A stretch of 64,000 bases of DNA from Hyphomicrobiales bacterium (GTDB taxonomy: Bacteria > Pseudomonadota > Alphaproteobacteria > Rhizobiales > NORP267). The translations under genes were made by a program, and so were the position numbers. Location: positions 62,001 to 126,000 of the forward strand of contig JAJFHA010000015.1 of NCBI GenBank assembly GCA_021775875.1, in the 5' to 3' direction. Below, piece after piece: positions 896 to 56,193 of the stretch (its first letter is position 1; every line of letters begins with the position of its first letter). The notes below the pieces were generated by a model. That model was given only the letters and a program-made list of their open reading frames with translations. It was not told where the DNA came from and did no database searches.

Positions 896-3876
896 CCCGG
901 CAATCAAACCGGCTTGAAGCAGGTGGCTCCCGGATTGAGCGGGACAAACCGCTCAATTTTACCTTTGACGGCAAACGTTATTTCGGGTTTCAAGGGGATA
1001 CGCTGGCATCTGCCCTGATCGCCAACGGCGTCAAACTGATGGGCCGCTCGTTCAAATATCATCGCCCACGCGGGGTGATGACGGCGGGGTCGGAAGAACC
1101 AAACGCCCTTGTTGAATTACGTATTGGTGCCAGACGGGAACCAAACACCCGGGCCACCATGGTGGAGCTTTACGATGGCCTGACGGCGGCGTCCCAGAAC
1201 CGCTCACCGTCGTTGAAATTTGATCTGATGTCGGTCAACCAGCTTTTCAGCAGGTTCATGACCGCCGGGTTTTACTATAAGACCTTCATGTGCCCGGCGT
1301 CATTCTGGGAGAGCTTTTACGAAAAAATCATTCGGCGGTCGGCGGGCCTTGGCCGGGCTGCGGAAAAAGCTGACCCGGACAGTTACGACCATGCCCATGC
1401 CCATTGTGATGTGCTGATAGTTGGTGCGGGACCGGCTGGACTGGCAGCAGCGCTCGCGGCGGGCCGAACCGGTGCGCGGGTCATGCTGGTTGAGGAGCAA
1501 CCATCGCCCGGTGGCGCGGTTTCGCTGATCCGCGATGATATTGACGGGATGGCGGCGGGTGACTGGGTTCGGCAGTCTTTCGAGGCGCTTGAAAGCCTCG
1601 ATAATGTAACCATCATGCTGCGGACGACCCTGGTCGGTTATTACGATCACAATGTTCTGGCGGCGCTGGAACGGGTGTCTGACCATTTGGCGAAACCTGG
1701 TCCCCATCAACCCCGCCAACGGTTGTGGACGATCCGGGCCAAGGAAGTGGTGCTTGCCTGCGGGTCTCACGAACGCATGCTGACCTTTGATAATAACGAC
1801 AAGCCCGGTGTGATGCTTTCAAGCGCCGTGCGCCATTTTGTTGACCGGTTTGGCGCGACACCCGGTAAGCGGATCGTGATCTGCACTAACAATGATGACG
1901 CCTATGCAACCGCTTTGGCGCTTAAAAACTCCGGGGTTGAAGTAGTACTGATAGCGGATGCCCGTCCCACCCTTGGGGCAGCAGGGCAGAGTGCACTGGC
2001 GGCTGGAATCAGGGTTGAGACAAACACACTTCCGGCAAAAGCGCTTGGCTGGCACCGGGTTTCCGGGCTTACTTTACAACGTGCAGATGGTTCTGGCCGT
2101 GAGAAGGTATCCTGCGACTGTATCGCGGTGTCGGCTGGGTTTTCGCCGGACGTTAATCTTGCCAGTCAGACCGGCGCTGCGCCTTTGTGGCGTGAAGACT
2201 TACAAGGCTTTGTTCCGGCAAAACCGATCCGCCGTGAACGCTCCGCTGGCGCCGGCAATGGCACGTTTGATTTGCGCGGATGCCTTGCAGAAGGACATGC
2301 CGCCGGGCTGGATGCGGTTCGTGCCGTGGGTCTGAAAGTTGGCCACAGTAAAGCCGCACCAAAAGTCGAGACAACAGGAATATCAGCCCCGCTTGCCGTC
2401 TGGCGCTGCCCTGGAAATGGCAAGGCGTTTGTTGATTTTCAAAATGATGTCACGGCAAAAGATATCCAGCTTGCCCATCAGGAAGGCTTTGTATCGGTCG
2501 AACATGTCAAGCGCTACACAACGCTCGGCATGTCGACGGATCAGGGCAAAATGTCGAACGTCAATGGCATCGCATTGTTGGCCGAAGCCCGGGGACAGGA
2601 TATCCCGGAGGTTGGCACCACCCGTTTCCGTCCGCCCTATGTTCCGGTGGCGATTGGGGCATTTGCAGGCCATGAACGGGGCAAGGAATTTCAGCCTACC
2701 CGGCGCACGGCGATGCACACCTGTCACGAAAAACTCGGTGCGGTGTTTGTTGAGGCCGGGCAATGGCTGCGCCCGCAATATTACCCTCAGCCCGGCGAGG
2801 AGATAACGGAAACCATCTGGCGTGAAAGCATGCAGGTGCGCAAGACCGCCGGGATTTGCGATGTTTCAACACTAGGCAAAATCGAAATATTCGGTCCCGA
2901 CGCGGCTGAATTTCTCAACCGGCTCTATATCAATGGCTGGAAAATGCTGGCTGTCGGCAAGGCGCGCTACGGCCTGATGCTGCGCGAAGATGGTTACGTC
3001 TTTGATGACGGCACTACATCGCGCCTCGCTGACGATCATTTTTTCATGACCACCACCACCGCCAATGCAGCGCGGGTGCTGGCCCATATGGAACATGCAT
3101 CGCAAGTTCTGTGGCCGGATATGGATGTGCATTTCTGCTCGGTGACGGAGCAATGGTGCGGGGTTGCAGTTGCCGGCCCGAATGCGCGGAAAATTCTTTC
3201 CGAGGCGTTTGGTGATGCGATCGATATGTCCGACCAGAGCTTGCCCTTCATGGGGGTCGAGACATTTACCTGGCGAGGTATCACAGCGCGGATATTCCGA
3301 ATCAGTTTTTCCGGTGAACTGGCCTACGAGATCAACGTAGGGTGGCGCTATGGCGAAGCGATGTGGGGTGCCATTTGGGCGGCAGGCAAGGCGCACGACC
3401 TTATCCCCTACGGCACCGAAGCGTTGAATGTGTTGCGGATCGAGAAGGGCCATGTGGCCGGCAACGAACTGGACGGGCGCACGACTGCCGCCGATATGGG
3501 GCTTGGCCGGATGATGTCCGGCAAGAAGCCTTTCATCGGAAAATCCTTGGCGGCCCGCGAAGAGATGATGGCATCCGACCGGGCGACATTGGTTGGTATC
3601 AAACTGGCGCAAAAAGACGGGCGGTTGCGCGGCGGTGCCCATCTGGTGATCGAGAAAGAAAATACTGATCTGGAATCAAGCCTTGGATGGGTGACGTCTG
3701 TTGCCGATAGCCCGGCGCTTGGGTGCTGGATCGGGCTTGGCTATCTCAAAGGCGGGCTTGGGGCGCATGAAGGGGCGCGGCTCAATGCGGTTTATCCGCT
3801 ATATGATGAGGCGGTCGAGATAGAGATTTGCTCTCCCCATTTTTTCGACCCCACGGGAGGTCGGCTTGATGGTTGA
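892..3876 (+). CDS. soxA: Sarcosine oxidase alpha subunit
   Basis: A 994-residue protein with the full alpha-subunit layout. An N-terminal ferredoxin-like domain spans about residues 20-105. A Rossmann NAD(P)/FAD-type motif (GAGPAGLAAALAAG) sits near residue 177. A C-terminal GcvT-like tetrahydrofolate domain begins around residue 610. In this family the alpha subunit binds NAD and transfers the sarcosine methyl carbon to THF, giving 5,10-methylene-THF plus glycine and hydrogen peroxide. Its start overlaps soxD by 4 bases and its end overlaps soxG by 8, indicating a tightly coupled operon. folD, which interconverts the THF product, lies about 4 kb downstream. No frameshift is visible. Confidence 0.95.
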   Translation: MTRQSNRLEAGGSRIERDKPLNFTFDGKRYFGFQGDTLASALIANGVKLMGRSFKYHRPRGVMTAGSEEPNALVELRIGARREPNTRATMVELYDGLTAASQNRSPSLKFDLMSVNQLFSRFMTAGFYYKTFMCPASFWESFYEKIIRRSAGLGRAAEKADPDSYDHAHAHCDVLIVGAGPAGLAAALAAGRTGARVMLVEEQPSPGGAVSLIRDDIDGMAAGDWVRQSFEALESLDNVTIMLRTTLVGYYDHNVLAALERVSDHLAKPGPHQPRQRLWTIRAKEVVLACGSHERMLTFDNNDKPGVMLSSAVRHFVDRFGATPGKRIVICTNNDDAYATALALKNSGVEVVLIADARPTLGAAGQSALAAGIRVETNTLPAKALGWHRVSGLTLQRADGSGREKVSCDCIAVSAGFSPDVNLASQTGAAPLWREDLQGFVPAKPIRRERSAGAGNGTFDLRGCLAEGHAAGLDAVRAVGLKVGHSKAAPKVETTGISAPLAVWRCPGNGKAFVDFQNDVTAKDIQLAHQEGFVSVEHVKRYTTLGMSTDQGKMSNVNGIALLAEARGQDIPEVGTTRFRPPYVPVAIGAFAGHERGKEFQPTRRTAMHTCHEKLGAVFVEAGQWLRPQYYPQPGEEITETIWRESMQVRKTAGICDVSTLGKIEIFGPDAAEFLNRLYINGWKMLAVGKARYGLMLREDGYVFDDGTTSRLADDHFFMTTTTANAARVLAHMEHASQVLWPDMDVHFCSVTEQWCGVAVAGPNARKILSEAFGDAIDMSDQSLPFMGVETFTWRGITARIFRISFSGELAYEINVGWRYGEAMWGAIWAAGKAHDLIPYGTEALNVLRIEKGHVAGNELDGRTTAADMGLGRMMSGKKPFIGKSLAAREEMMASDRATLVGIKLAQKDGRLRGGAHLVIEKENTDLESSLGWVTSVADSPALGCWIGLGYLKGGLGAHEGARLNAVYPLYDEAVEIEICSPHFFDPTGGRLDG

Positions 3877-4471
3877 ACGTGCGCCAGATTTTGTCGCAGT
3901 GACGCCGCTCGGTGATTTTGAACCCTTCACGCGGGGAGCTGGTGATGGAGTGGGCGTGAATTTGTCGGTTCAACCCGCTAGAGCCATGGTCCAGCTATTT
4001 GCCCGAAATGGCAAAGCAGATGATGTTGCCAAAAATCTGAAACTGGAAGCCCGTCCGGGACAGGCGACTATTTGCAAGAATTTTGTGACTTTTCCTTTGT
4101 CATCCGGACAATGGCTGCTGGTTTCGAATGCCGACGACCCGGAAAAATTTGCCCCGGCGATTGAGAAGAAAATATCTGGCATTGGATATATTTCAGAGCA
4201 AAGTGATGCGCGAATATGTATCCGGGTGTCAGGTCTCAAGGCCCGTGATCTGATGTCACGCGGGTGCCGTCTGGACCTTCATGAAAGTGTTATTTCAAAG
4301 GGCTTCTGCGCCCAGACCCAGATGGCGCAGGTTGGTGTGTTGATCCATCAGGTGGACGACGCGCCAATATATGATCTCTATGTCTATGCTGGTTTCGCGA
4401 AGCCCTTCTGGCAATGGCTGATTGATATCAGCTCCCAATTCGGGATTAGCGCAGAAAATAAAGGCGAATGA
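3869..4471 (+). CDS. soxG: Sarcosine oxidase gamma subunit
   Basis: A 200-residue protein at the standard last position of soxBDAG. The gamma subunit is a GcvT-like structural partner that packs against the alpha C-terminal domain; no independent catalysis is known. The ATG at 3869 is preferred over a TTG three bases earlier because GGGAGG ends 8 bases upstream of it. It overlaps the soxA end by 8 bases. The sequence is weakly conserved, as usual for this subunit (LSVQPARAMVQLF, SSGQWLLVSNADD, IRVSGLKARDLMSRGC), so the call leans on context as well as these blocks. Confidence 0.9.
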   Translation: MVERAPDFVAVTPLGDFEPFTRGAGDGVGVNLSVQPARAMVQLFARNGKADDVAKNLKLEARPGQATICKNFVTFPLSSGQWLLVSNADDPEKFAPAIEKKISGIGYISEQSDARICIRVSGLKARDLMSRGCRLDLHESVISKGFCAQTQMAQVGVLIHQVDDAPIYDLYVYAGFAKPFWQWLIDISSQFGISAENKGE

Positions 4472-4574
4472 TTTCCGAACAAGTGAACATTGTGCAGTTG
4501 AAATAGCGCGGCGTTTGCTTGCATATTTCAACAATCGTCTAATTGTAAAATTTTTCACTGATCGGAATCGTCAA

Positions 4575-5195
4575 ATGTCAGACATCGAGTATTTTTATTC
4601 AGCCCATTCCGTGTTTGCTTATCTGGGGTCGGCCCGGTTCATGGAAATTGCGGCGGCGGCGGGGCGGACCATTGTCCATAAACCAGTGATTTTGGACGAT
4701 GTTGTGGAGGCCGTAACGCCGGTTGATTTTATCGCACGGAGCAAGGCGCACCGTGCCTATTATTTCGGGCGTGAAGTCGAGCGCTGGGCTGAATTTCGTA
4801 ATGTCCCGTTGAAGCTCGGTATGCCGTCAAATCACCGCAACGATATGAGTCTGGTGAATTCAATGCTGATCGCCGCCACCTTGCAGGGGCATAATGTTGA
4901 TCAATTGTCGCATTCCCTGCTCATGGCCCATTGGGCAGACCATGCGGATCTGGCGGATAAAGCCAATCTGGCCCGGCTTGCCGGTGAAGCCGGGTTGGAC
5001 GGTGTAGCTCTTCTTGATGCAGCGACGAGTGAAGCGGTAAAAGCCGTTTACGTGGCCAATACGGCGGAAGCGGTTGAACGTTCGGTATTCGGGTCGCCGA
5101 CCTATATGGTTGATGGCGACATGTTTTATGGCCAGGACCGCCTCGAATTTGTTGAACGCGCTTTGCAAAAACCATTCGCCAAAAACTGGCCCTAG
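4575..5195 (+). CDS. 2-hydroxychromene-2-carboxylate isomerase-like (DsbA-fold, kappa-GST family) protein
   Basis: A 206-residue protein of the DsbA-like thioredoxin fold. The N-terminal strand/helix (IEYFYSAHSVFAYLGSARF) has the start seen in NahD-type isomerases and kappa GSTs, where a serine near residue 10 activates glutathione. The cis-proline segment FGSPTYMVDG and the GQDRLEFVE tail complete the signature. Known members isomerise hydroxychromene carboxylate in naphthalene degradation, but most bacterial copies have no known substrate and no aromatic pathway lies nearby. The frame is open upstream to about 4422, but ATG 4575 begins exactly where family homology begins. It follows soxG by about 100 bases on the same strand. 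A second family member lies at 13608. Confidence 0.82.
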   Translation: MSDIEYFYSAHSVFAYLGSARFMEIAAAAGRTIVHKPVILDDVVEAVTPVDFIARSKAHRAYYFGREVERWAEFRNVPLKLGMPSNHRNDMSLVNSMLIAATLQGHNVDQLSHSLLMAHWADHADLADKANLARLAGEAGLDGVALLDAATSEAVKAVYVANTAEAVERSVFGSPTYMVDGDMFYGQDRLEFVERALQKPFAKNWP

Positions 5196-5288
5196 AAATT
5201 TTCGTCGAAAGCGTAGCCCGTGCCGCGCATGATACGGACTGGATCATTGTCACTGTTCTTGTTGTCCAGTTAATTGAAACGGACCCAA

Positions 5289-6737
5289 TCAGGTGTCGTT
5301 CAGCGACCCGCGCCGGATACCGATATTGCTGCGGTAAGATTGCGCCGCCTGGCTGATCGGTGAGGGCGCAACGATGGCGCGGATTTTTACCTGTTCGTGG
5401 GGTTCGATATTCCCGGCGCTGCGTTCGCCGCCACCATCTTCACCCCATAGAAGAACGACTTCGGTGCCGTGCTCGGTGAATTCAGCGTCGATGCTCGCCA
5501 GCGACATCATGGCTTTTTCGTTGACGGTGTAGCCTGGATAGGTTGCCAGTCCGATCATGTTGCCGTCTTTGTCGGTCACCTTGTCGTAATGCATTCTGGC
5601 ATTTGCGGCGAGCGGTATGGTGATTGGCAAAGGGTTGGCGCCGTCTTCGAGCTGGCTCTGCATCACGCCCAATACGTCTTCGGCATTCCAGATCAGGGTC
5701 ACTTTTTTTCGGTGCGGTTGGTCCTTAATTTTTTCCAGCGCTTCGCGACCGATATAATCATGGTCGAATTTCACCAGATGCCCATAATTGAGATCAAACG
5801 GGGTCAGATAATAATCCTCGATATTTGACGAATAGAAGCTTCCCCCCAGCGACATTCGCATGGCGGCGTGTTTCGCCGATAGCCATTCGCGATACCCTTT
5901 CATGCCTTCGCTGGTATAGACCGCAGAGACCGGGACCGCCCACCAGCCGGACTCGATTACGGTTGTGAAATAGGCAATGGAACCGATCTGGCGCAGGCCA
6001 TATTCCTTGCCGGCAGCGACGAGTGCGGATTTCACCGTCTTGCGGTCCTCCCAGGGGCCGGAAAGCTCCAACCCCGGCACGCCACCCATGGAATGGCGCA
6101 TTCCGCGCACCTTGCAGTCGGCAATGTTGAGGGTGTCGGATTTGAAGAATTTGATCTCGGGCAGCGGGCCGCCATGCAGCTCCTCCAGCAGCTTCCAGGC
6201 ATTGGGGCCTTCTACCTGATAGCGATAAAAATGACGCTTTTTCTCTTTGTTGAGCGCCCACATCGGATCGAGTTCTGATTTTACATCATAATCGAGCGTT
6301 TCAGCATTATACTGGACCCAGTCGGTCGTGCCGGGGTTGCCGACCACGAGGAAATGATCTTCCTCAAGGCGGTAAAGGATTGCATCGCCAATGACAAAAC
6401 CATCAGGCGAGCAGGTCAGAAGCTGTTTTGCGGCGCCGACGCCGAAATTCCTGAACGTGTTGACGGATAAATATTGGCACAGATCAAGCGCGCCGGGCCC
6501 GCGCAGGTGCAGGCTGTGCATGTGATAGCTCTGGTCGTGCAATGCGATTGTATTGCGCCACGACCATTGCTCATCCCGCCACGTGGTGAATTCGGGGCGT
6601 ACTGCATCACCTGGCATCATCTGGGTGTGGATCGTCAGCGCGTTTTTTGGCGCATTGCGAAACAGGTGATCGACAACATTCGGCACCTGTTCGATCAGAT
6701 CGTTCAGTGTCTGGGGCTGGTTATTATTGTCGGTCAT
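5289..6737 (-). CDS. LigM/DesA-like tetrahydrofolate-dependent O-demethylase homologue (GcvT family)
   Basis: A 482-residue protein of the GcvT/aminomethyltransferase superfamily. By eye it is closest to LigM (vanillate) and DesA (syringate) demethylases rather than to GcvT or DmdA: WRDEQWSWRN, HDQSYHM, ESGWWAVPVSAVYT, GGSFYSSNIEDYY, VKFDHDYIGREALE and LWGEDGGG all have close LigM counterparts. LigM moves an aryl O-methyl group to THF using a catalytic tyrosine. Tyr274 (AVYTSEG) falls in the matching region and is the likely equivalent, although I could not align it formally. The natural substrate cannot be read from the sequence: no ring-cleavage genes are present, but sarcosine oxidase, folD and uraD are neighbours. 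It diverges from uraD across a striking inverted repeat. Confidence 0.82.
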   Translation of the reverse strand: MTDNNNQPQTLNDLIEQVPNVVDHLFRNAPKNALTIHTQMMPGDAVRPEFTTWRDEQWSWRNTIALHDQSYHMHSLHLRGPGALDLCQYLSVNTFRNFGVGAAKQLLTCSPDGFVIGDAILYRLEEDHFLVVGNPGTTDWVQYNAETLDYDVKSELDPMWALNKEKKRHFYRYQVEGPNAWKLLEELHGGPLPEIKFFKSDTLNIADCKVRGMRHSMGGVPGLELSGPWEDRKTVKSALVAAGKEYGLRQIGSIAYFTTVIESGWWAVPVSAVYTSEGMKGYREWLSAKHAAMRMSLGGSFYSSNIEDYYLTPFDLNYGHLVKFDHDYIGREALEKIKDQPHRKKVTLIWNAEDVLGVMQSQLEDGANPLPITIPLAANARMHYDKVTDKDGNMIGLATYPGYTVNEKAMMSLASIDAEFTEHGTEVVLLWGEDGGGERSAGNIEPHEQVKIRAIVAPSPISQAAQSYRSNIGIRRGSLNDT

Positions 6738-6794
6738 GGTGACATCCTGTCCTGTTCAAGCGCAATTATCTGCGGGATTGTGGTTTGAATAAAA

Positions 6795-6843
6795 TCTATA
6801 GCTCTATAGAAAAATATGCAACCTGTTTCTATAGAGCTATAGA
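6795..6843. promoter_or_regulatory. 18-bp perfect inverted repeat, candidate operator between the LigM-like gene and uraD
   Basis: The left arm (6795-6812) and the right arm (6826-6843) are exact reverse complements separated by 13 bases. Each arm holds two copies of the self-complementary hexamer CTATAG, so the site contains four CTATAG units. It sits in the 221-base gap between two divergent starts, closer to the minus-strand gene. The arrangement suits cooperative binding of a dimeric regulator controlling both genes. No regulator gene adjoins it. Confidence 0.65.
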
Positions 6844-6958
6844 AAATTGAGACAAATGGCTTCAGCATATTAATATCGGGCGAAAACTGTTTTGCGACTT
6901 GAAAGCTGTGAAGGAAACGAACCATTTGTATAATGGGGTTCAGGAAAAAGAGAGTGTC

Positions 6959-7465
6959 ATGAAACCATCGCAGATGAACGAACAGAATTTTGTCGAGGTG
7001 TTTGGCTCGGTTTATGAACATTCTCCCTGGATCGCGATTGCTGCCCACCGATCAGGGCTGACGTCTGATCAGGATGATCCGGCGGCCTTGGCCGGGATGA
7101 TGGCAGGGATTGTTGATGGGGCTTCCAAAACCCAAAAGCTGGAATTGTTACGGGCGCACCCGGACCTTGTTGGTAAACTGGCGCAGCGCGGAGAACTGAC
7201 AGAGGCGTCCGTTGAAGAGCAAGCAGGCGCGGGCCTCGATCAATGTACGCCTGAAGAATTTGTCGCCTTTCAGGACTTGAACACACGATATACCGAGAAA
7301 TTCGGTTTTCCCTTCATTATAGCGGTACGTGGATATGAACGCCTGGAAATTCTTGAAATATTCAAGACACGTGTTGACCATGATCCAGAGCAGGAATTTG
7401 CCGCGGCGCTTGACCAGGTTGACCGGATTGCTGCTTTGCGCATCGGCCAGATTTTGGCAACTTGA
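6959..7465 (+). CDS. uraD: 2-oxo-4-hydroxy-4-carboxy-5-ureidoimidazoline (OHCU) decarboxylase
   Basis: A 168-residue protein that decarboxylates OHCU to S-allantoin, the last step of urate breakdown. The start ATG at 6959 gives the usual length; the frame is open 60 bases further up without family homology. His67 (RAHPDL) and Glu87 (SVEEQAG) fall at the numbering of the known catalytic His and Glu. The conserved FGFPFIIAVRG block is also present. The partner enzymes urate oxidase and HIU hydrolase are not in the window, so uraD stands alone here. It may be co-regulated with the divergent LigM-like gene through the shared inverted repeat. Confidence 0.9.
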   Translation: MKPSQMNEQNFVEVFGSVYEHSPWIAIAAHRSGLTSDQDDPAALAGMMAGIVDGASKTQKLELLRAHPDLVGKLAQRGELTEASVEEQAGAGLDQCTPEEFVAFQDLNTRYTEKFGFPFIIAVRGYERLEILEIFKTRVDHDPEQEFAAALDQVDRIAALRIGQILAT

Positions 7466-7552: not shown

Positions 7553-7831
7553 ATGAATTCTATTGTTTTTCTGATCCTCAATATCCTCCAGATCTATGTC
7601 TGGGTGATTATAGCGAGCGCTGTTTTAAGCTGGCTGATTGCTTTTAACGTGGTCAATACCCAGAATCGGTTTGTCTATATGGTAGCGGATACGTTGCGGC
7701 GTTTGACCGAGCCTGTATTGGCACCGATCCGGCGGATCATGCCGGACCTTGGCGGCATTGATGTCTCGCCGGTAATTTTGATCCTGTTGCTGTTTTTCGC
7801 GCAAAATCTTATTTTTGAATATCTGATCTGA
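7553..7831 (+). CDS. YggT family membrane protein
   Basis: A 92-residue protein with two hydrophobic spans (about residues 4-28 and 70-90) flanking a polar linker. The linker carries the YggT signature (RRLTEPVLAPIRRIMPDLGG), and SPVILILLLFFAQNL follows. YggT proteins are inner-membrane proteins of unclear role, linked to osmotic stress and cell-envelope assembly. The DUF167 gene follows after about 20 bases, a pairing also seen in E. coli (yggT-yggU), which supports both calls. The gene is intact and of normal length. Confidence 0.9.
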   Translation: MNSIVFLILNILQIYVWVIIASAVLSWLIAFNVVNTQNRFVYMVADTLRRLTEPVLAPIRRIMPDLGGIDVSPVILILLLFFAQNLIFEYLI

Positions 7832-7850
7832 GGAACCTCCAGGTTTGGCG

Positions 7851-8156
7851 ATGGAAATTGTTCCCGACGGATTGATTTTCCATGTGCGATTGACGCCGCG
7901 CACGGCCCATGACCGGGTCGATAGTGTCGAGACCCGCGACGATGGACGCCACGTGATCAATGCCCGGGTGCGGGCGGTGCCGGAAGACGGTAAGGCCAAC
8001 AAAGCGCTTTTGAAGCTTTTTGCCAAATGCCTGTCGTATCCAGTTGGCAAATTGTCGCTGCGCGGGGGCCATAAATCCCGGATCAAGAAGATTTTTGTCG
8101 AGGGCGATGGTGATGACCTTGCGGCCCACTTAACGAGTTATTTGAAAAATTTTTAG
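7851..8156 (+). CDS. DUF167 (YggU) family protein
   Basis: A 101-residue cytoplasmic protein of the YggU/DUF167 family. Characteristic blocks are [13 protein letters not shown], the [24 protein letters not shown] core and [21 protein letters not shown] near the end. The molecular function of the family is unknown. ATG 7851 is preferred over the TTG six bases upstream. It sits between yggT and folD with short gaps (19 and 14 bases), so the three are probably co-transcribed. Confidence 0.88.
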
Positions 8157-8170
8157 AGGGCAAAAATACA

Positions 8171-9052
8171 ATGATTATCGACGGGAAAGCGGTGGCTGCG
8201 GATATCAGGGGCCGGGTCGGAGAGGCGGTTACGGCATTGCGTGCCGAGCATGATTTGCAACCGGGCCTGGCTGTGGTGCTGGTAGGCGCTGATCCGGCAA
8301 GTGAAGTTTATGTGCGCAACAAAGGCAAGCAGACCGTTGAAGCGGGGATGCAATCTTTCGAGCATCGCCTTGATGTGGATACAGATGAATCCACCCTTTT
8401 GGCGCTTGTTGAAAAATTGAATGCCGATCCTGCTATCCACGGCATCCTTGTTCAATTGCCGTTGCCTGACCAGATTGATGAAGACAAGGTGATTAACGCG
8501 ATCAATCCGGACAAGGATGTGGACGGGTTCCATATTCTCAATGCCGGTCGGTTGGCAACCGGTCAGCAGAGCCTGGTTCCCTGCACACCTGCCGGATGCG
8601 TTATTCTGGCGCGTCGGGCGCTCGGGGATTTGTCAGGACTTGATGCGGTGATTGTCGGGCGCTCGAATATTGTCGGCAAACCGTTGGCGCAATTGCTGCT
8701 AAAGGAAAACTGCACGGTTACAATTGCCCATTCACGCACCCGCAATCTGGAAGATGTTTGCCGCCGCGCCGATATATTGGTGGCGGCGGTGGGACGGCCC
8801 AACATGATTTTGGGCGATTGGGTCAAGCCGGGCGCTTGCGTTATCGATGTGGGGATCAACCGGATCGAAGGCGAAAATGGAAAAACCCGGCTGGTTGGCG
8901 ATGTGGATTTTGCATCAGCGGAAAAAGTTGCCGGATCTATCACGCCGGTGCCGGGTGGCGTTGGTCCGATGACGATCGCATTGCTGCTTGCAAATACCGT
9001 TGTGGCAGCTTGCGCCATCAACAATATTGAAGCCCCTGATCTGTTTAAATAG
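8171..9052 (+). CDS. folD: Bifunctional methylene-THF dehydrogenase / methenyl-THF cyclohydrolase
   Basis: A 293-residue FolD, the normal length. It interconverts 5,10-methylene-THF, methenyl-THF and 10-formyl-THF with NADP. Signatures seen are [14 protein letters not shown] (active-site Tyr and Lys), [17 protein letters not shown], the nucleotide-binding [16 protein letters not shown] and [10 protein letters not shown] near the C-terminus. Its place downstream of sarcosine oxidase and a THF-dependent demethylase homologue suits handling of THF-bound one-carbon units. It is also an essential-type housekeeping gene, so the proximity may not mean dedicated use. Confidence 0.97.
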
Positions 9053-9183
9053 GAAAATTTATACGCGTCTTTTTTGCAAACCTGTTGTTCCTTGTTGCCA
9101 TTTTGGCGCGGGATTTTGTTTGCGGTGAAGATGATGTGGTGATTATCGGTGTGGAATAGCCCGGCAAATCTTTATTCCGGCAC

Positions 9184-9690
9184 TCATGGCCACAGATAGG
9201 CGATTTTTTCCAAAACCGCGTCGCCCATATTTTCCTTTGTCCGGGCGACTTCCTTTCCGCCGAGCGCTTTATAGAACCGGCATCCTATTTCGTTGGCTTC
9301 CAGCGCCCAAACAATGCACCCCGCGCCATGTTTGCGAATGGCATCGTCACAGGCATGCTCGAACAGGGTGCGGCCCAGACCGGCACCGTGAAATTCCGGC
9401 AGGATATAGCATTCGTAAATCTCGGCTTTGGCGGGCAGGTCCGGTTTGCGGCAACGGCCCCAGGTCGCGTAACCGACCAACACGCCATCATATTCAATCA
9501 CGCTTATGGGGCTATCAACGGACAAGGCCCAGCGCCACCAGGAATCCAGTCTGATAGCGACCATCCTATCGAGGGTCGGTCCCGGGATGATGCCTGTATA
9601 GGCGAAGCGCCATGCAATTTCGCGAACTTCGGCAAGTATTTTCGCGTCAGACCGCTTGCCCCGGCGCACGGATATTGTCGCTGGTTTCAT
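9184..9690 (-). CDS. GNAT family N-acetyltransferase
   Basis: A 168-residue acetyltransferase of the GCN5-related fold. The acetyl-CoA pyrophosphate-binding motif is at ILPEFHGAGLGRTLFEHA, preceded by the strand IYECY and followed by NEIGCRFYKALGGKEVARTK, the usual alpha4/beta6 region. The substrate cannot be predicted. The start at 9690 (MKPATISVRR) is chosen because the longer frame runs back into the typA 3' end. It lies 22 bases downstream of the typA stop on the same strand and may be read from the typA transcript. Confidence 0.85.
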   Translation of the reverse strand: MKPATISVRRGKRSDAKILAEVREIAWRFAYTGIIPGPTLDRMVAIRLDSWWRWALSVDSPISVIEYDGVLVGYATWGRCRKPDLPAKAEIYECYILPEFHGAGLGRTLFEHACDDAIRKHGAGCIVWALEANEIGCRFYKALGGKEVARTKENMGDAVLEKIAYLWP

Positions 9691-50416: not shown

Positions 50417-51445
50417 ATGAGCTACAGGATCGCCGTTGCCGGTGCGACCGGAAATGTGGGACAGGAAATGCTCGCCATTCTGGAAGAGCGCCTATTCCCG
50501 GCATCTGAAGTTATCCCGTTGGCATCCAGCCGCTCGGTTGGCCGCGATGTTTCATACGGCGACCGGATTTTGAAATGCAAGGATCTGGCGAATTTCGATT
50601 TCACAGGCGTTGATTTATGCCTGATGTCAGCCGGTGGCGATGTCTCCAGGGAATGGTCGCCGAAAATTGCCGCCAAGGGCTGCGTCGTAATCGATAATTC
50701 GTCGGCCTTTCGCTACGAAGCGGACGTGCCGCTGGTGGTTCCGGAAGTGAATGCGTCTGACGTTGACGGTTTCGCCCAGCGCAATATTATCGCCAACCCG
50801 AATTGCTCGACCGCCCAGCTTGTTGTGGCGCTAAAGCCGCTGCATGACGCCTTCGGGATCAAGCGGGTGGTGGTCTCCACTTATCAATCCGTGTCGGGGG
50901 CCGGCAAGGAAGCGATTGATGAATTGTGGAACCAGACCAAGGGTATTTTCGTCACCGATATGCCAACGCCGAAAGTGTTTCCGCGGCAAATTGCATTCAA
51001 CGTAATCCCGCATATCGATACGTTCATGGAGGACGGCACGACGCGGGAAGAATGGAAAATGGTCGCCGAGACCAAAAAAATTCTTGATCCGAAAATCAAG
51101 CTGACTGCGACCTGCGTCCGGGTGCCGGTTTTCGTTGGTCATTCAGAAGCGATCAATATCGAGTTCGAAAAGCCGGTTAATGTTGAAGAAGCGCGAAACG
51201 TGTTGCGCGAAGCACCGGGCTGTATGGTGATCGACAAGCATATTGACGGCGGCTATGTAACGCCGATTGAATGCGTTGGTGATTTCGCCACTTTCATTTC
51301 CCGGATCAGGGAAGATATCACAGTCGAGAATGGTCTCAATATCTGGGTGGTATCCGACAATCTTCGCAAGGGCGCGGCGTTGAATACGGTGCAGATTGCG
51401 GAAACCATGATCAATCGCGGGTTGCTGAAGCCAAAAGCTGCTTAA
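50417..51445 (+). CDS. asd: Aspartate-semialdehyde dehydrogenase
   Basis: A 342-residue NADP-dependent enzyme that reduces aspartyl phosphate to aspartate semialdehyde, the branch point for Lys, Met, Thr and diaminopimelate. The nucleotide motif is GATGNVGQEM, the catalytic Cys is Cys130 (NPNCSTAQL), and the acid-base His lies in VPVFVGHSEAINIEFE. The start at 50417 has AGGAG 7 bases upstream. The last 27 codons plus stop are repeated about 1 kb downstream with synonymous differences only, which marks the junction of an inserted segment. Confidence 0.97.
   Translation: MSYRIAVAGATGNVGQEMLAILEERLFPASEVIPLASSRSVGRDVSYGDRILKCKDLANFDFTGVDLCLMSAGGDVSREWSPKIAAKGCVVIDNSSAFRYEADVPLVVPEVNASDVDGFAQRNIIANPNCSTAQLVVALKPLHDAFGIKRVVVSTYQSVSGAGKEAIDELWNQTKGIFVTDMPTPKVFPRQIAFNVIPHIDTFMEDGTTREEWKMVAETKKILDPKIKLTATCVRVPVFVGHSEAINIEFEKPVNVEEARNVLREAPGCMVIDKHIDGGYVTPIECVGDFATFISRIREDITVENGLNIWVVSDNLRKGAALNTVQIAETMINRGLLKPKAA
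51362..51445 (+). repeat. Direct repeat copy A: functional 3' end of asd
   Basis: These 84 bases are the last 27 codons plus stop of the intact asd. They match copy B (52390-52473) at 75 of 84 positions. All nine differences leave the amino acid unchanged (for example CGC/CGT, GTG/GTC, CTG/TTG). Confidence 0.95.
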
Positions 51446-52389
51446 GAGACTTATTGCAGCAATTGTCTTATCTCAAAGTAAATCTAGCTACCTACCGTAT
51501 GAAAAATTTTTTGGAATCGTGCTAGATGGGTGGTTATGCCTGAAGAATTGCAAACCCCGAAACTGATCGCTTCTTTTTCCTGGATCTGGAGGCACCCTGT
51601 TCTGACTGGATTTGCGGTCATTGTGCCAATCGCATATGCCGCGTTTTCAGCTCTGAAAGATACGTTTGATTTCTATTTTTGGGCACAGACAAACTGGGAC
51701 TGGATAGTTAATCTTTCAAATTCTCAATATTTTGATTGGGTAGTAGTAGCTAGCCTGTTTCTTTTAATTTTTCTTCTGATTGGAAGGGCAGCTAAGAAAG
51801 ACCAGTTAGAAGCGCAGAAAATCATTACACGGAACAAAGTTCATGCTGCAGAGCGATTGCAAATTGAATCAATGGCGAATGCACGATTTGATAATCTTAC
51901 AGTGAGGTTGGCCAAAATTGGTGAGTTGTGGACATTGGATAGGAGATTAGCTGATTTAAGAGAGCAAAGGATGGCACAAGATCGGGCAGGAAAAAAAATT
52001 GTTCAAAACCTTCTAGATAGAGCTATGGCACCTGATACCCGTGATATTGCCGGGGCCTTAACAATGGAGATGGGGGATTATAAATTTTTCAGTGAAAAGG
52101 CGTTGGATCTAGTTGAGGAGTGTTTGAAGGAATTGGATCCAGGGTGGAGCAGGGAAGTCAAAGTGGATGATTTTCCTCCGCCAGAAACGGATTTAAAACA
52201 GATTGAGAAGTGCGGCAGATGGCGTGACGTTTATATTCAACATCAGGCTTATGTTCGGAAGTTGATATTTGACCTAGATAAAGCCATCGAATTGACCCAC
52301 AGAAAATGCGTAGAAACAAAGAGGGATGCAGAAGCTTTGTTCGAGGGTTAAGTATGAAACGAAAATCAAATTAAATTTGAAAATTTATC
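51446..52389. mobile_element. Inserted AT-rich segment between two asd 3' ends
   Basis: A segment of about 0.94 kb bounded by direct repeats of the asd 3' end. It carries a single gene and no integrase or transposase. Two 60-base lines counted inside it have 38-42% GC, against about 60% in a neighbouring line. The structure resembles a small integrative element or a site-specific cargo exchange that rebuilds the target gene's end, but the recombination mechanism is inferred. Confidence 0.7.
51536..52351 (+). CDS. Orphan membrane-anchored protein carried by the asd insertion
   Basis: A 271-residue protein (or 273 from GTG 51530). Two membrane spans lie near the N-terminus, about residues 21-40 (PVLTGFAVIVPIAYAAFSAL) and 66-83 (YFDWVVVASLFLLIFLLIG). 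About 185 residues of charged, mostly helical sequence follow and should face the cytoplasm, including likely coiled-coil parts (RRLADLREQRMAQDRAGKK and the C-terminal DLDKAIELTHRKCVETKRD). I recognise no catalytic motif or family. Its AT-rich codons differ sharply from its neighbours, a sign of transfer. As sole cargo of an insertion it may be an accessory trait such as defence or an immunity function, which is speculation. Confidence 0.75.
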   Translation: MPEELQTPKLIASFSWIWRHPVLTGFAVIVPIAYAAFSALKDTFDFYFWAQTNWDWIVNLSNSQYFDWVVVASLFLLIFLLIGRAAKKDQLEAQKIITRNKVHAAERLQIESMANARFDNLTVRLAKIGELWTLDRRLADLREQRMAQDRAGKKIVQNLLDRAMAPDTRDIAGALTMEMGDYKFFSEKALDLVEECLKELDPGWSREVKVDDFPPPETDLKQIEKCGRWRDVYIQHQAYVRKLIFDLDKAIELTHRKCVETKRDAEALFEG

Positions 52390-52473
52390 CTACGTAAGGG
52401 CGCGGCGTTGAATACGGTCCAGATTGCCGAGACCATGATCAATCGCGGGTTGTTGAAACCGAAAGCTGCCTAA
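52390..52473 (+). pseudogene. Direct repeat copy B: detached asd 3' end remnant
   Basis: An 84-base fragment that reads as the last 27 Asd residues (LRKGAALNTVQ... KPKAA) and stop, with no gene body before it. It lies only 12 bases from the stop of the convergent SGNH-like gene, which suggests that this is the original position of the asd end before insertion. Nine synonymous differences from copy A point to a diverged donor allele rather than a simple tandem duplication. Confidence 0.9.
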
Positions 52474-52485
52474 AGGAAACGCGAC

Positions 52486-53712
52486 TTAGCGTACTTCCTC
52501 CACGATACGCTCTGCACCGTCACCGGTAAGTTTGCCCCATTCCTGCCTGAGCCATGTCATGAATTCGGGATTGTCTAAAGCCCATGCATCAATACCGTCG
52601 CGGGTATTGGTCAGATGGTCCACAATGTTGGCTTGGGTGGGACGGACGCCAAACCCGCCTGGAACCGGGTGAGGCAAGGGCTGGTCGAAAATTCGGGCAA
52701 GAATATTGTCGCCGACTGGGGTTATGTAATGAGAAGCCTCTGCATGCCATTGCATCATGGTGGAAGCTTCTTCTTCCGGAACAGATTCACTTGTAATGTT
52801 GTTTAGGTAGCCAAAATCCAAAAATTCAAATCTGCCTTCACCGTCTCCAAATTCAGCTGTGAGATCGGTCAGAAACCGTTTCATCTCTTCATAAGCTGGC
52901 CATGCGCCGGACAGCCGGTAATCCTGGAGACGGTAAATGTGAGCCGGTTGCAGAAAAATTGTAAACCGCACACCTGTCTCATGGAGCTGGCGTGCGGTTT
53001 CGCGCAGCCTGTCCAGTCGTTCAAAACGCTCATTCCGAGTGGTGATTTGCACTTGGGTCATGATGTTGAGCATGACAATCGTTGATCGCATGAATAGATC
53101 ATTCTGGTTGACGGGTATTGGTTCAACTTCTCTTGTTTGCGTAAAGCCATTTATTTTGTTGTCGAGTCTTTCATTCGACAGATATCTTGCCAGATATCTG
53201 AAAAGACCTGCTGTGGCATTTTCGGAAAACAGATATCGGACATATCCGGACAGGCGCGATTCTCCTGCGAAAACCGAGAATGGATAATCCGCCATATGCG
53301 GTTCCGGGGAATAAAAATAATCGAAATCTAGCCCCCAGATTATATGGCGGACACTCGGAACATTCGCTGCCGCGTAGCGTGCCATTTCTCCCAATTCATA
53401 CCCGCGCGCGCCGGGCACCGAGGCGTTGTAAACATTGTGTCCTTCCAGAAATGAAATGTCAGGGTTCAGGGTGGCATTGACCCGTGACGAACCGAGAAAC
53501 AATATTTCCGGCTGCAACTGAGTCAGGTACAATCCCTTGACGACCCGGTTACCTTGTGCGCCAAGGCGATACTGGTGACTATTGAAGCCGCTATCGGGGA
53601 GAAGTCGGGTGCCAAACAGGCCGTAAGGGTCGACAATAAGGGACAGGGAAACTTGCAAAAACACAAGCAGGCCGAGTATGGAAAACAGGATTTTTAGGTA
53701 GCGGCGCGCCAT
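52486..53712 (-). CDS. Membrane-anchored SGNH/AlgJ-like protein, partner of the MBOAT acyltransferase
   Basis: A 408-residue protein with an N-terminal signal anchor (LKILFSILGLLVFLQVSLSLIV) and a large periplasmic domain. ILFLGSSRVNATLNP near residue 75 resembles the nucleophile block of SGNH-like acetylation proteins, and the WHAEASHYITPVGDNIL segment near residue 340 would supply the distal His. Such proteins accept an acyl group passed through the membrane by an MBOAT and transfer it to a polysaccharide. It directly follows the MBOAT gene (11-base gap). The start at 53712 (MARRYLK) is chosen because the upstream part lies inside the MBOAT gene. Confidence 0.75.
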   Translation of the reverse strand: MARRYLKILFSILGLLVFLQVSLSLIVDPYGLFGTRLLPDSGFNSHQYRLGAQGNRVVKGLYLTQLQPEILFLGSSRVNATLNPDISFLEGHNVYNASVPGARGYELGEMARYAAANVPSVRHIIWGLDFDYFYSPEPHMADYPFSVFAGESRLSGYVRYLFSENATAGLFRYLARYLSNERLDNKINGFTQTREVEPIPVNQNDLFMRSTIVMLNIMTQVQITTRNERFERLDRLRETARQLHETGVRFTIFLQPAHIYRLQDYRLSGAWPAYEEMKRFLTDLTAEFGDGEGRFEFLDFGYLNNITSESVPEEEASTMMQWHAEASHYITPVGDNILARIFDQPLPHPVPGGFGVRPTQANIVDHLTNTRDGIDAWALDNPEFMTWLRQEWGKLTGDGAERIVEEVR

Positions 53713-53723
53713 TTGTTTGAACC

Positions 53724-55187
53724 CTAGAACTGAAAATACAGAAATTCGGACGTGACCCAGGACAGAACAAGCGCAACAAAAGCCATGCAACCAAACAGCG
53801 TTGCCCGCCACCATGTGGGGGTCCATTGCAAACGACGTAATGGTGCGAACGGTATGTCTTCGATTTTCTCATCAACAACCGGCTTGAAGGCCCGGAACAA
53901 TTGTTGGGTATTTGGTGCCAATGCACAAAAAACAATCAACGCCAGAGAGATAAATATCGTGCGTGATTTATCGATCATGTCGACGGGTGTTTCCACCCCG
54001 TTCAATCCAAGCATGCCGGTATAGACATTGACCGCGCCATCGAAGGATTCCGCCCTGAAGGTGACCCAGGCGATGATTATGGCGGCCATTGTTAGCGACC
54101 ATGCAATGACCCTTGGCATACGAAATGATGTAACCGATTGCCATAGATGAGCGATGACCAGGTAAGCGCCATGCAATGATCCCCAGGCAATGTAGGTCCA
54201 TCCGGCGCCATGCCAGAGACCGCCAAGGAACATGACAATCATCAAGTTGGCATAACGCCGCCCGGTACCTTTCCGGTTGCCGCCAAGCGGGTAATAAAGA
54301 TAGTCGCGCAAGAATCGCGAAAGCGTAATATGCCAGCGTCGCCAAAAATCCATAATGGAAACCGCTCGGTAGGGGGACGCAAAATTCATCGGCAGGCGCA
54401 ACCCGAACATCAGCGCGAGGCCGATGGCCATGTCGCTATACCCGGAAAAATCAAAATAGATCTGCACCGTATATGCCAGTGCAGCCTGCCAGCCGGCAAT
54501 CAGCCCGATCGGGGTGCCGGTTTCGGCAAGCTCAAACACGCGGGTTGAATAGGTTGCCATCTGATCGGCGATCACGATCTTTTTGCACAGGCCAATTATG
54601 AAAATGGTGATCCCGACGGCTAGATCCTGCCAGATGTCGCGGGCTGCTTTCAGCTTTGAGAATTGCGGCACCATTTCGCCGTGATGGACAATCGGCCCGG
54701 CGATCAATTGCGGGAAGAAGCTGACAAACAGGCTGTAATTCAGCAAATCCGGCAGGCTGGCTTTGCGCTGGTGGATATCGACGAGGAACGCGATCTGCTG
54801 GAACGTAAAGAAGGAAATGGCGAGGGGCAGAATGATATTCTGTAAAGCCAAATCACTACCTGAAACATTATTGATCGTTGAGATGGCAAAATCGAAATAT
54901 TTGAAAACGCCAATCAGGCTGAGATTGAGAATGATGCCGATGGTCAATACAGCTTTTCTTCGCGCGCCGTCTGTGGATTGAATGAGCCAGGCACCGCCGT
55001 AATTTGCCAGGATTGAAGCGATCAGCAGGAGCAGATATGCGGGCCGCCACCAGCCATAGAAAATAAAAGACGCAATGACCAACCAGGTCACTAGGGCGCG
55101 GACCGGCATTTTTTCGCGCATCAAATAGAACCCGGCGAGGGTAATTGGCAAGAAAACCAGAATAAAAATTCCGGAAGGAAACAACAT
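53724..55187 (-). CDS. MBOAT family membrane-bound O-acyltransferase
   Basis: A 487-residue protein with about eleven membrane spans. It carries the AlgI/DltB-type signatures FWRRWHITLSRFLRDYLYY, YPLGGNRKG and MFLGGLWHGAGWTYIAWG with the invariant His. Members move acetyl or other acyl groups across the inner membrane for modification of exopolysaccharides or wall polymers. No alginate or other polysaccharide synthesis genes are in the window, so the acceptor is unknown. It forms a two-gene unit with the SGNH-like gene downstream. Confidence 0.92.
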   Translation of the reverse strand: MLFPSGIFILVFLPITLAGFYLMREKMPVRALVTWLVIASFIFYGWWRPAYLLLLIASILANYGGAWLIQSTDGARRKAVLTIGIILNLSLIGVFKYFDFAISTINNVSGSDLALQNIILPLAISFFTFQQIAFLVDIHQRKASLPDLLNYSLFVSFFPQLIAGPIVHHGEMVPQFSKLKAARDIWQDLAVGITIFIIGLCKKIVIADQMATYSTRVFELAETGTPIGLIAGWQAALAYTVQIYFDFSGYSDMAIGLALMFGLRLPMNFASPYRAVSIMDFWRRWHITLSRFLRDYLYYPLGGNRKGTGRRYANLMIVMFLGGLWHGAGWTYIAWGSLHGAYLVIAHLWQSVTSFRMPRVIAWSLTMAAIIIAWVTFRAESFDGAVNVYTGMLGLNGVETPVDMIDKSRTIFISLALIVFCALAPNTQQLFRAFKPVVDEKIEDIPFAPLRRLQWTPTWWRATLFGCMAFVALVLSWVTSEFLYFQF

Positions 55188-55257: not shown

Positions 55258-56193
55258 CTATCTTGACGTGATCAACGCCGGATCGGTGTTGGAGCCGCAT
55301 AACAATATGCCGACGCGTTCGTCTTTTTCGGGCTGGTAGATGCCAGACGTCAGGGCAGCGAGTGCGGCCGCACCGCCGGGTTCGGCGATCAACCGCAACC
55401 GGTTCCAGATCATGCCTTGGGCCTTGCGGATTTCGGCATCCGGGACAGTGAGAGATTTGGTGACAAATTCCTGCGCGAGCGGGAACATCAGATCGCCGAC
55501 GCTGCGAGCACCGAGGGAATCTGCAGCCACGCCTGACACATCGACGTCGACCGGATGACCCGCCACCAAAGCGGCGTTCAGGGCGCAGGAGGTTTCGGGT
55601 TCAACCGCGATGACCCGGCAATTGCCGCTATACCAGGCGGCCATGCCGCCGATCAGCCCACCGCCACCAACAGCTACAAAAACCGTGTCCAGATTTTCCA
55701 CCTGTAACTGCCATTCGCGGGCGACTGTGCCCTGGCCCGCCAAGGTTGAGGGCTGGTCATAGGCGTGAACTGACAAAGCGCCGGAATCCAGTTGGAAGGC
55801 TTCGCATGCCTTCAGGGCGTCGGCGTAAAGTGCGCCGCCGATATGGATCGTGGCACCGTAAGATTTGATCAGGTCGGTTTTGGTTTTACCGGTTACTTCG
55901 GGGACAAAAATGTTGGCAGGGACACCGCATTGTTTGGCGGCAAAGGCGATTGCCGCGCCGTGATTGCCCCCTGATGCCGCCACCACGCCGATAGCTGGCA
56001 CATTGCCTGACAGAAGGCTGTTCATGGCCCCGCGGGCTTTGAATGAACCTGAATTCTGGAGCAATTCGAGCTTCAAATTCAGCGGATGATTGATGCCGAA
56101 ACTATCGGCATCCAGATTGATGACGGGGGTCTTTCGGACCTTGCCTTCGATGCGTCTGGCGGCAGCTTCGATGTCTTCGCGGTTGATGCTCAT
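55258..56193 (-). CDS. PLP-dependent threonine/serine dehydratase-like enzyme
   Basis: A 311-residue fold-type II PLP enzyme. The Schiff-base lysine is in SGSFKARGAMNSLL near residue 50, the phosphate-binding and asparagine loop is ASGGNHGAAIAFAAK, and the glycine loop VAVGGGGLIGGMAAW is present. It lacks the C-terminal ACT regulatory domain of biosynthetic IlvA, so a catabolic threonine or serine ammonia-lyase, or a racemase-like role, is likely. It overlaps pdxY by 4 bases, which fits co-supply of the cofactor. Confidence 0.87.
   Translation of the reverse strand: MSINREDIEAAARRIEGKVRKTPVINLDADSFGINHPLNLKLELLQNSGSFKARGAMNSLLSGNVPAIGVVAASGGNHGAAIAFAAKQCGVPANIFVPEVTGKTKTDLIKSYGATIHIGGALYADALKACEAFQLDSGALSVHAYDQPSTLAGQGTVAREWQLQVENLDTVFVAVGGGGLIGGMAAWYSGNCRVIAVEPETSCALNAALVAGHPVDVDVSGVAADSLGARSVGDLMFPLAQEFVTKSLTVPDAEIRKAQGMIWNRLRLIAEPGGAAALAALTSGIYQPEKDERVGILLCGSNTDPALITSR

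Follow-up and report, generated by a model that had tools for sequence, protein, structure and literature searches.

Introduction

The systems closest to the locus reported here are integrative elements that enter at gene ends and gene clusters in which the 3′ part of a gene has been pushed downstream. According to excerpts of PMC5704250, most IMEs that encode a tyrosine recombinase target a gene end, 5′ or 3′, the attachment cores of integrative elements span 8–60 bp, and CIMEs that lost their integration genes have been described. Kirchberger et al. (2017) proposed homology-facilitated illegitimate recombination to explain how parts of genes were displaced in Vibrio T6SS clusters, a process that is rare according to the excerpted text (PMC5361080); the same text reports that a similar mechanism was also hypothesised for rhs 3′ regions. 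A search of titles and abstract openings returned no relevant case of insertion at asd, and a published case may still exist; asd is absent from the sites named in the excerpted part of a paper on a Mesorhizobium ICE (PMC8627217). Here we describe a locus in which asd is followed by a foreign-looking gene and then by a second version of its own last codons, and we weigh how this arrangement could have arisen.

Results

The locus lies in the window (the whole 64-kb stretch of DNA that was analysed), on contig C7 of a genome that we call G000. Its features, from asd to the next gene conserved in the genus, are these:

50417–51445, plus strand: intact asd, aspartate-semialdehyde dehydrogenase (Pfam PF02774, 2.1e-58; PF01118, 3.2e-31)
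51362–51445, plus strand: copy A, the functional last 27 codons and stop of asd
51446–51529: AT-rich spacer separating asd from the cargo ORF
51530–52351, plus strand: cargo ORF, an ORFan of 273 aa
52352–52389: AT-rich spacer immediately before copy B
52390–52473, plus strand: copy B, an orphan asd end with nine silent differences from copy A
52486–53826, minus strand: convergent ORF of 446 aa, without a match in Pfam or NCBIfam
53724–55187, minus strand: MBOAT-family O-acyltransferase (PF03062, 1.8e-33)
55258–56193, minus strand: serine/threonine dehydratase, the right border of the variable interval (NF006094, 4.9e-130)

Copies A and B are the sole direct repeat of at least 40 nt that a repeat search detected in the window. 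They are identical at 75 of 84 bases, and both encode the peptide LRKGAALNTVQIAETMINRGLLKPKAA, 27 residues followed by a stop. The mismatches occupy nine positions in nine codons, and all nine are synonymous. These observations bear out the initial annotation, which had placed the end of asd at 51445 and a detached copy of it, encoding the same residues with nine silent differences, at 52390–52473, 12 bases from the next convergent gene. Homology ends sharply at the upstream edges, where the 30 bases 5′ of copy A and the 30 bases 5′ of copy B agree at 6 positions, and the sequences 3′ of the two stop codons are without evident similarity. The open frame of copy B spans only 30 aa, which rules out that it is part of a longer gene, a possibility raised together with the original claim.

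At a 4:1 weight of transitions over each transversion, 31% of the possible one-base changes to copy A are silent, so that the probability of nine silent differences out of nine is ~2.6e-5. We therefore rejected copy B as a decayed tandem duplicate. Because the differences are purely silent, both copies would have stood in working genes until recently, and because copy B has no amino-acid change, the recombination event itself would be recent. Taken together, we consider it very probable that two diverged, working asd ends were joined not long ago.

The divergence of the two ends is close to that seen within the genus. The asd of G000 is 95% and 91% identical to those of two congeners. Compared with congener G002, its asd gene has 84 silent and 18 amino-acid-changing codons of 343 (silent divergence 0.245), and compared with congener G001 it has 135 silent codons of 343 (0.394); copies A and B differ silently at 9 of 28 codons (0.32). 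This value is within the range of the comparison with G002, in which 26% of overlapping 28-codon windows carry at least nine silent codons, and is below that with G001. Since the divergence is about that between congeners, one of the two ends came, therefore, from a relative at about species distance. Moreover, because the copies differ by silent changes alone, whereas amino-acid changes accompany the silent ones between G000 and G002, both ends appear to have been under coding selection until recently. The distances to the congeners favour neither copy as the native one: both are 11 bases from G002, and copies A and B are, respectively, 17 and 16 bases from G001.

The 944-bp segment between the copies (51446–52389) has a GC content of 40.8%, compared with 53.5% for the window, and contains the one 273-aa ORF, in agreement with the single-gene, AT-rich insertion described originally. 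Third-position GC of the cargo ORF is 0.398, against 0.52–0.67 in six neighbouring genes. No terminator-like site was found in 51300–52560. The cargo protein belongs to no family in Pfam, PADLOC or NCBIfam and has only two insignificant matches in PHROGs (E 0.33 and 4.1); with PADLOC empty and the PHROGs matches insignificant, we rejected it as a known defence or phage gene. At the sensitivity of the scan, no relatives were found in plasmids, phages, viral contigs and genome contigs, a collection from which records near the genome of the window were possibly excluded, and there were none in 60 related genomes besides G000. At the level of the class, 2 of 384 other genomes gave local matches, one over 44 residues (E 8e-4) and one over 73 residues (E 0.009). 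Both are 30% identical, the 44-residue match is interrupted by an internal stop, and we did not accept them as relatives. At the level of the phylum none of 397 other genomes (a set overlapping that of the class) had a relative, and the best match among solved structures had an E value of 1.4. Judged from its sequence, the cargo ORF is a foreign-looking ORFan without convincing relatives in anything searched. By eye, two hydrophobic stretches stand near its N end, and in a low-confidence AlphaFold model built from one sequence (mean pLDDT 56) a long helical part follows them. These features hint at a small protein of the inner membrane that is partly coiled. We noted an inverted match of 13 of 15 bases between the two spacers, equalled in 21 of 1000 shuffles. 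A transposon with terminal inverted repeats was rejected, as this match is marginal and its right arm extends five bases into copy B.

Variable intergenic spots between convergent conserved genes are a known pattern. The order of asd and the dehydratase is common to all three species of the genus (G000, G001 and G002), and the interval between the two genes measures 3,812 bp in G000, 1,276 bp in G001 and 5 bp in G002, where the site is empty and the stops of asd and the convergent dehydratase are that distance apart. Over its 6,097 bases, the G002 contig matches JAESRU010000087.1 (Hyphomicrobiales bacterium isolate NORP267, a MAG) without a difference. In G001 it contains one alpha/beta hydrolase gene (PF12146), whose best match among 30 other genomes is 30% identical (E 2.7e-21); 24 of the 30 have some hydrolase match. 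In G000 it contains the ORFan, copy B and the MBOAT gene with its 446-aa partner, which we take, by its place beside the MBOAT gene alone, to be SGNH/AlgX-like. This convergent pair (52486–55187) is absent from the same place in both congeners, and the earlier description of the locus as holding only one cargo gene may, therefore, be too narrow; other MBOAT-family members occur elsewhere in all three genomes. The junction between asd and the dehydratase appears to be variable, as convergent junctions often are.

The initial annotation had advised looking among close relatives for empty sites or for other cargo between two asd ends. The empty site (G002) and the other content (G001) were indeed found; however, short-word BLAST found no second asd end in the interval of G001. 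The proposal that a segment entered with its own diverged asd end, leaving the other end downstream, is supported by the silent-only divergence and by the empty site in G002. Separately, we observed that the 11 bases immediately after the stop of copy A (51446–51456) recur once, exactly, in G001, between the hydrolase gene and the dehydratase (stretch-local 5770–5780), which is perhaps a trace of the ancestral flank or else chance.

The last 81 residues of asd served as the query in a search of 297 genomes of the order. A match was present in 284 genomes and absent from 13, and 16 genomes gave two matches, G000 being the only one with a detached tail inside a contig. In eleven genomes (G039, G065, G090, G226 and seven others of the genus of G039) the second match is a further asd-like gene, diverged or full-length; those of the seven are 35–40% identical, in frames of 349–399 aa. 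The second match in G188 is weak (E 8.5e-4) and falls in a 648-aa frame, and in G052 one asd gene is apparently split over two contig ends without overlap. In G075, contigs C180 and C193 each carry an asd sequence that the contig edge interrupts; the two are different (72% over 85 bp of overlap) and are possibly due to a second gene or to contamination (5%). Five fragmented genomes (G052, G075, G142, G267 and G282) have asd cut by a contig edge at a point from residue 297 to residue 316, the other piece in G075 being cut at residue 271, and in three other genomes asd stops at residues 179, 205 and 221. The 81-residue query favours finding cuts at residues 297–316, near the start of copy B, and we draw nothing from their position. 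In viral contigs, a degenerate pattern of the asd tail had no exact match.

One of these genomes, G282, offers a candidate second case. On its contig C10, behind a full asd, stand a 136-aa ORF, a gene that we read from its sequence as HAD-like, and a transporter-like ORF (stretch-local 2590–4435). The 98-kb contig C8 begins at base 1 inside an asd tail (1–144), which matches the asd of C10 at 140 of 144 bases (97%), with three silent differences and one V-to-I change. Seven bases after the stop of this tail starts a relative of the HAD-like gene (152–538), 74% identical in DNA to the copy on C10. No relative of this gene was found around asd in five genomes of the same family (stretches of 2.9 to 8 kb each). 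The G282 genome is listed with 6% contamination. BLAST found no other similarity between C8 and C10, and only one match to C8, of 248 bp, turned up in 400 kb from 20 other contigs of G282; contamination by a close relative is, therefore, not obvious from these comparisons. Cut by the contig edge, the tail on C8 is possibly another displaced end of asd, or else a contamination.

We also compared the window and 20 further stretches of its own genome each with itself (439,355 bases, partly overlapping). Two further repeat pairs were found, both no more than a few kilobases away from tRNA genes and recombinase-like genes, and in neither could a duplicated protein-gene end be recognised by eye in ORF lists cut at 80 and 120 aa. 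On contig C3, the copies of a 222-nt direct repeat (87%; stretch-local 1505–1725 and 6702–6922) have between them a large serine recombinase (4884–6704) and an IS240-type transposase, and one copy touches the 3′ end of tRNA-Gln (6917–6990); the locus looks like an integrated element. On contig C13, a 157-nt direct repeat (85%; stretch-local 3635–3791 and 4483–4638) lies ~3 kb from a 586-aa integrase ORF (7609–9369) that adjoins tRNA-Gly (9452–9527), and the locus is probably one integrated element; by eye, the repeat resembles the upstream regions of two minus-strand genes. A search with PF00589 alone gave five tyrosine integrase matches in the genome and none on contig C7. The Pfam families of asd and of the MBOAT gene are not those of recombinases, and neither the cargo ORF nor the 446-aa ORF has a Pfam match. 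These results agree with the statement that the insertion has no integrase, as regards the ORF of the segment, which has no family, and matches to PF00589 on the contig.

Discussion

We observed two asd ends with purely silent divergence, a cargo of foreign composition, and an empty and an alternatively filled site in the congeners. With moderate confidence, we read the locus as the scar of a one-sided, homology-anchored recombination of congener DNA. The incoming DNA would have come from a congener at about species-level distance and carried the 3′ part of its asd followed by the ORFan. Homologous recombination inside asd would have joined it to the resident gene, and its non-homologous far end would have been joined illegitimately inside the resident asd near codon 315. 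As a result, the incoming end (copy A) would complete the gene, and the last 28 codons of the resident (copy B) would be left downstream as an orphan. Here we infer the direction (copy A foreign, copy B native), the route and the enzymes. The empty site in G002 supports such a route. It would need no core of identity, because silent differences start in the first two codons of copy B and the longest unchanged run, 7 codons, matches chance (runs of at least 7 in 41% of random placements; P 0.41). The related genes that follow each asd end in G282 would be as expected of the chromosomal DNA of a relative and not of an element. A homologous anchor on the left (asd) and a non-homologous junction at the left edge of copy B are both present, though the rival explanations predict them likewise. 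Besides the rarity of homology-facilitated illegitimate recombination, three observations count against the homology route: no microhomology is evident at the left edge of copy B when compared with copy A, which is not the true parental sequence; the distance to G002, 11 differences, is the same for copy A as for copy B; and the G282 tails are 97% identical but the genes that follow them 74%, which is not simply predicted.

An insertion whose recombinase has since been lost would look much the same as an asd-anchored scar. In such a site-specific integration, a small element or remnant with its attachment site at the asd 3′ end, served by a recombinase in trans or by one since lost, would rebuild the gene with copy A and leave copy B as the other attachment site, a CIME in effect. 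Consistent with this, asd is restored precisely as far as its stop, the foreign DNA is bordered by two direct repeats that share 23 identical bp close to their upstream edges, and the preference of IMEs for gene ends and the loss of integration genes from CIMEs (excerpts of PMC5704250) are precedents; the weak inverted match between the spacers and the second candidate tail in G282 also agree with it. The repeats, however, are imperfect at the very edge, and no att core above chance was found in copies A and B. The absence of PF00589 matches from the contig, of exact tail matches from viral contigs and of further within-contig detached tails from the 297 genomes, together with the lack of a second recognisable protein-gene-end duplication in the window and the 20 own-genome stretches, also argue against it, and we regard this explanation, the main rival, as possible, if rather unlikely.

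The same structure would result from a Campbell-type single crossover, in which a small circular DNA with an asd end and the ORFan recombines homologously within the 84 bp, without a dedicated recombinase. Host recombination would suffice for this, but a stretch of 84 bp with 89% identity lends itself poorly to homologous recombination and the cargo protein is unmatched in plasmid and phage collections; we find such a crossover highly improbable. Alternatively, the asd end might have been duplicated in tandem, on both sides of the insert or beside it, before gene conversion replaced the working end by a congener allele. If the conversion was recent, this would explain the silent-only differences, and the near likeness of the G282 tails is what a duplication would give; yet it needs two events, with copy B unchanged since the duplication, and seems to us improbable.

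Homology-anchored recombination of congener DNA, our preferred reading, describes a single event at this locus. It is doubtful, and on the whole unlikely, that the asd end is in general a recombinase-independent exchange slot, where an anchor of high asd identity lets the gene behind asd ride between species. If so, small cargo behind asd would turn over between species with asd intact, orphan ends would tally the swaps, and G282 would be a second instance. The initial suggestion that asd may be a slot for exchangeable small cargo draws on the three different contents in three congeners and on the one further candidate, in G282; as the slot of an integrative element it would be putative, with one within-contig tail in 297 genomes. 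Where an orphan gene end differs from the working one by silent changes alone, this points cleanly to a recent meeting of two functional alleles, and the distance of the donor can be read from the same differences. Should more such ends be found, cargo swaps at housekeeping genes could be counted where no integrase trace is left and where element finders miss them.

The arrangement resembles, from what excerpts of PMC5361080 describe, T6SS effector-immunity arrays and rhs C-terminal displacement, where likewise a constant upstream gene serves as anchor, new DNA arrives downstream, and the old 3′ part is pushed further downstream. Here, in contrast, the anchor is a housekeeping enzyme, both ends encode the same residues, so that the enzyme stays as it was and the novelty lies in the cargo alone, and there is one clear case with one candidate. 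CIMEs and integrative elements at gene ends, as excerpted from PMC5704250, likewise have a rebuilt gene end, a second copy of that end at the far border and foreign DNA between; at asd, no recombinase was found, a core is only a candidate, and the segment is under 1 kb with one gene. As in variable convergent spots, the interval between asd and the dehydratase differs among three congeners, being empty in one and occupied by one gene in another and by three in the third, but here a second asd end came along with one of these contents. We regard the orphan end of asd as a clearly marked case of an event of a familiar kind, and not as a new system.
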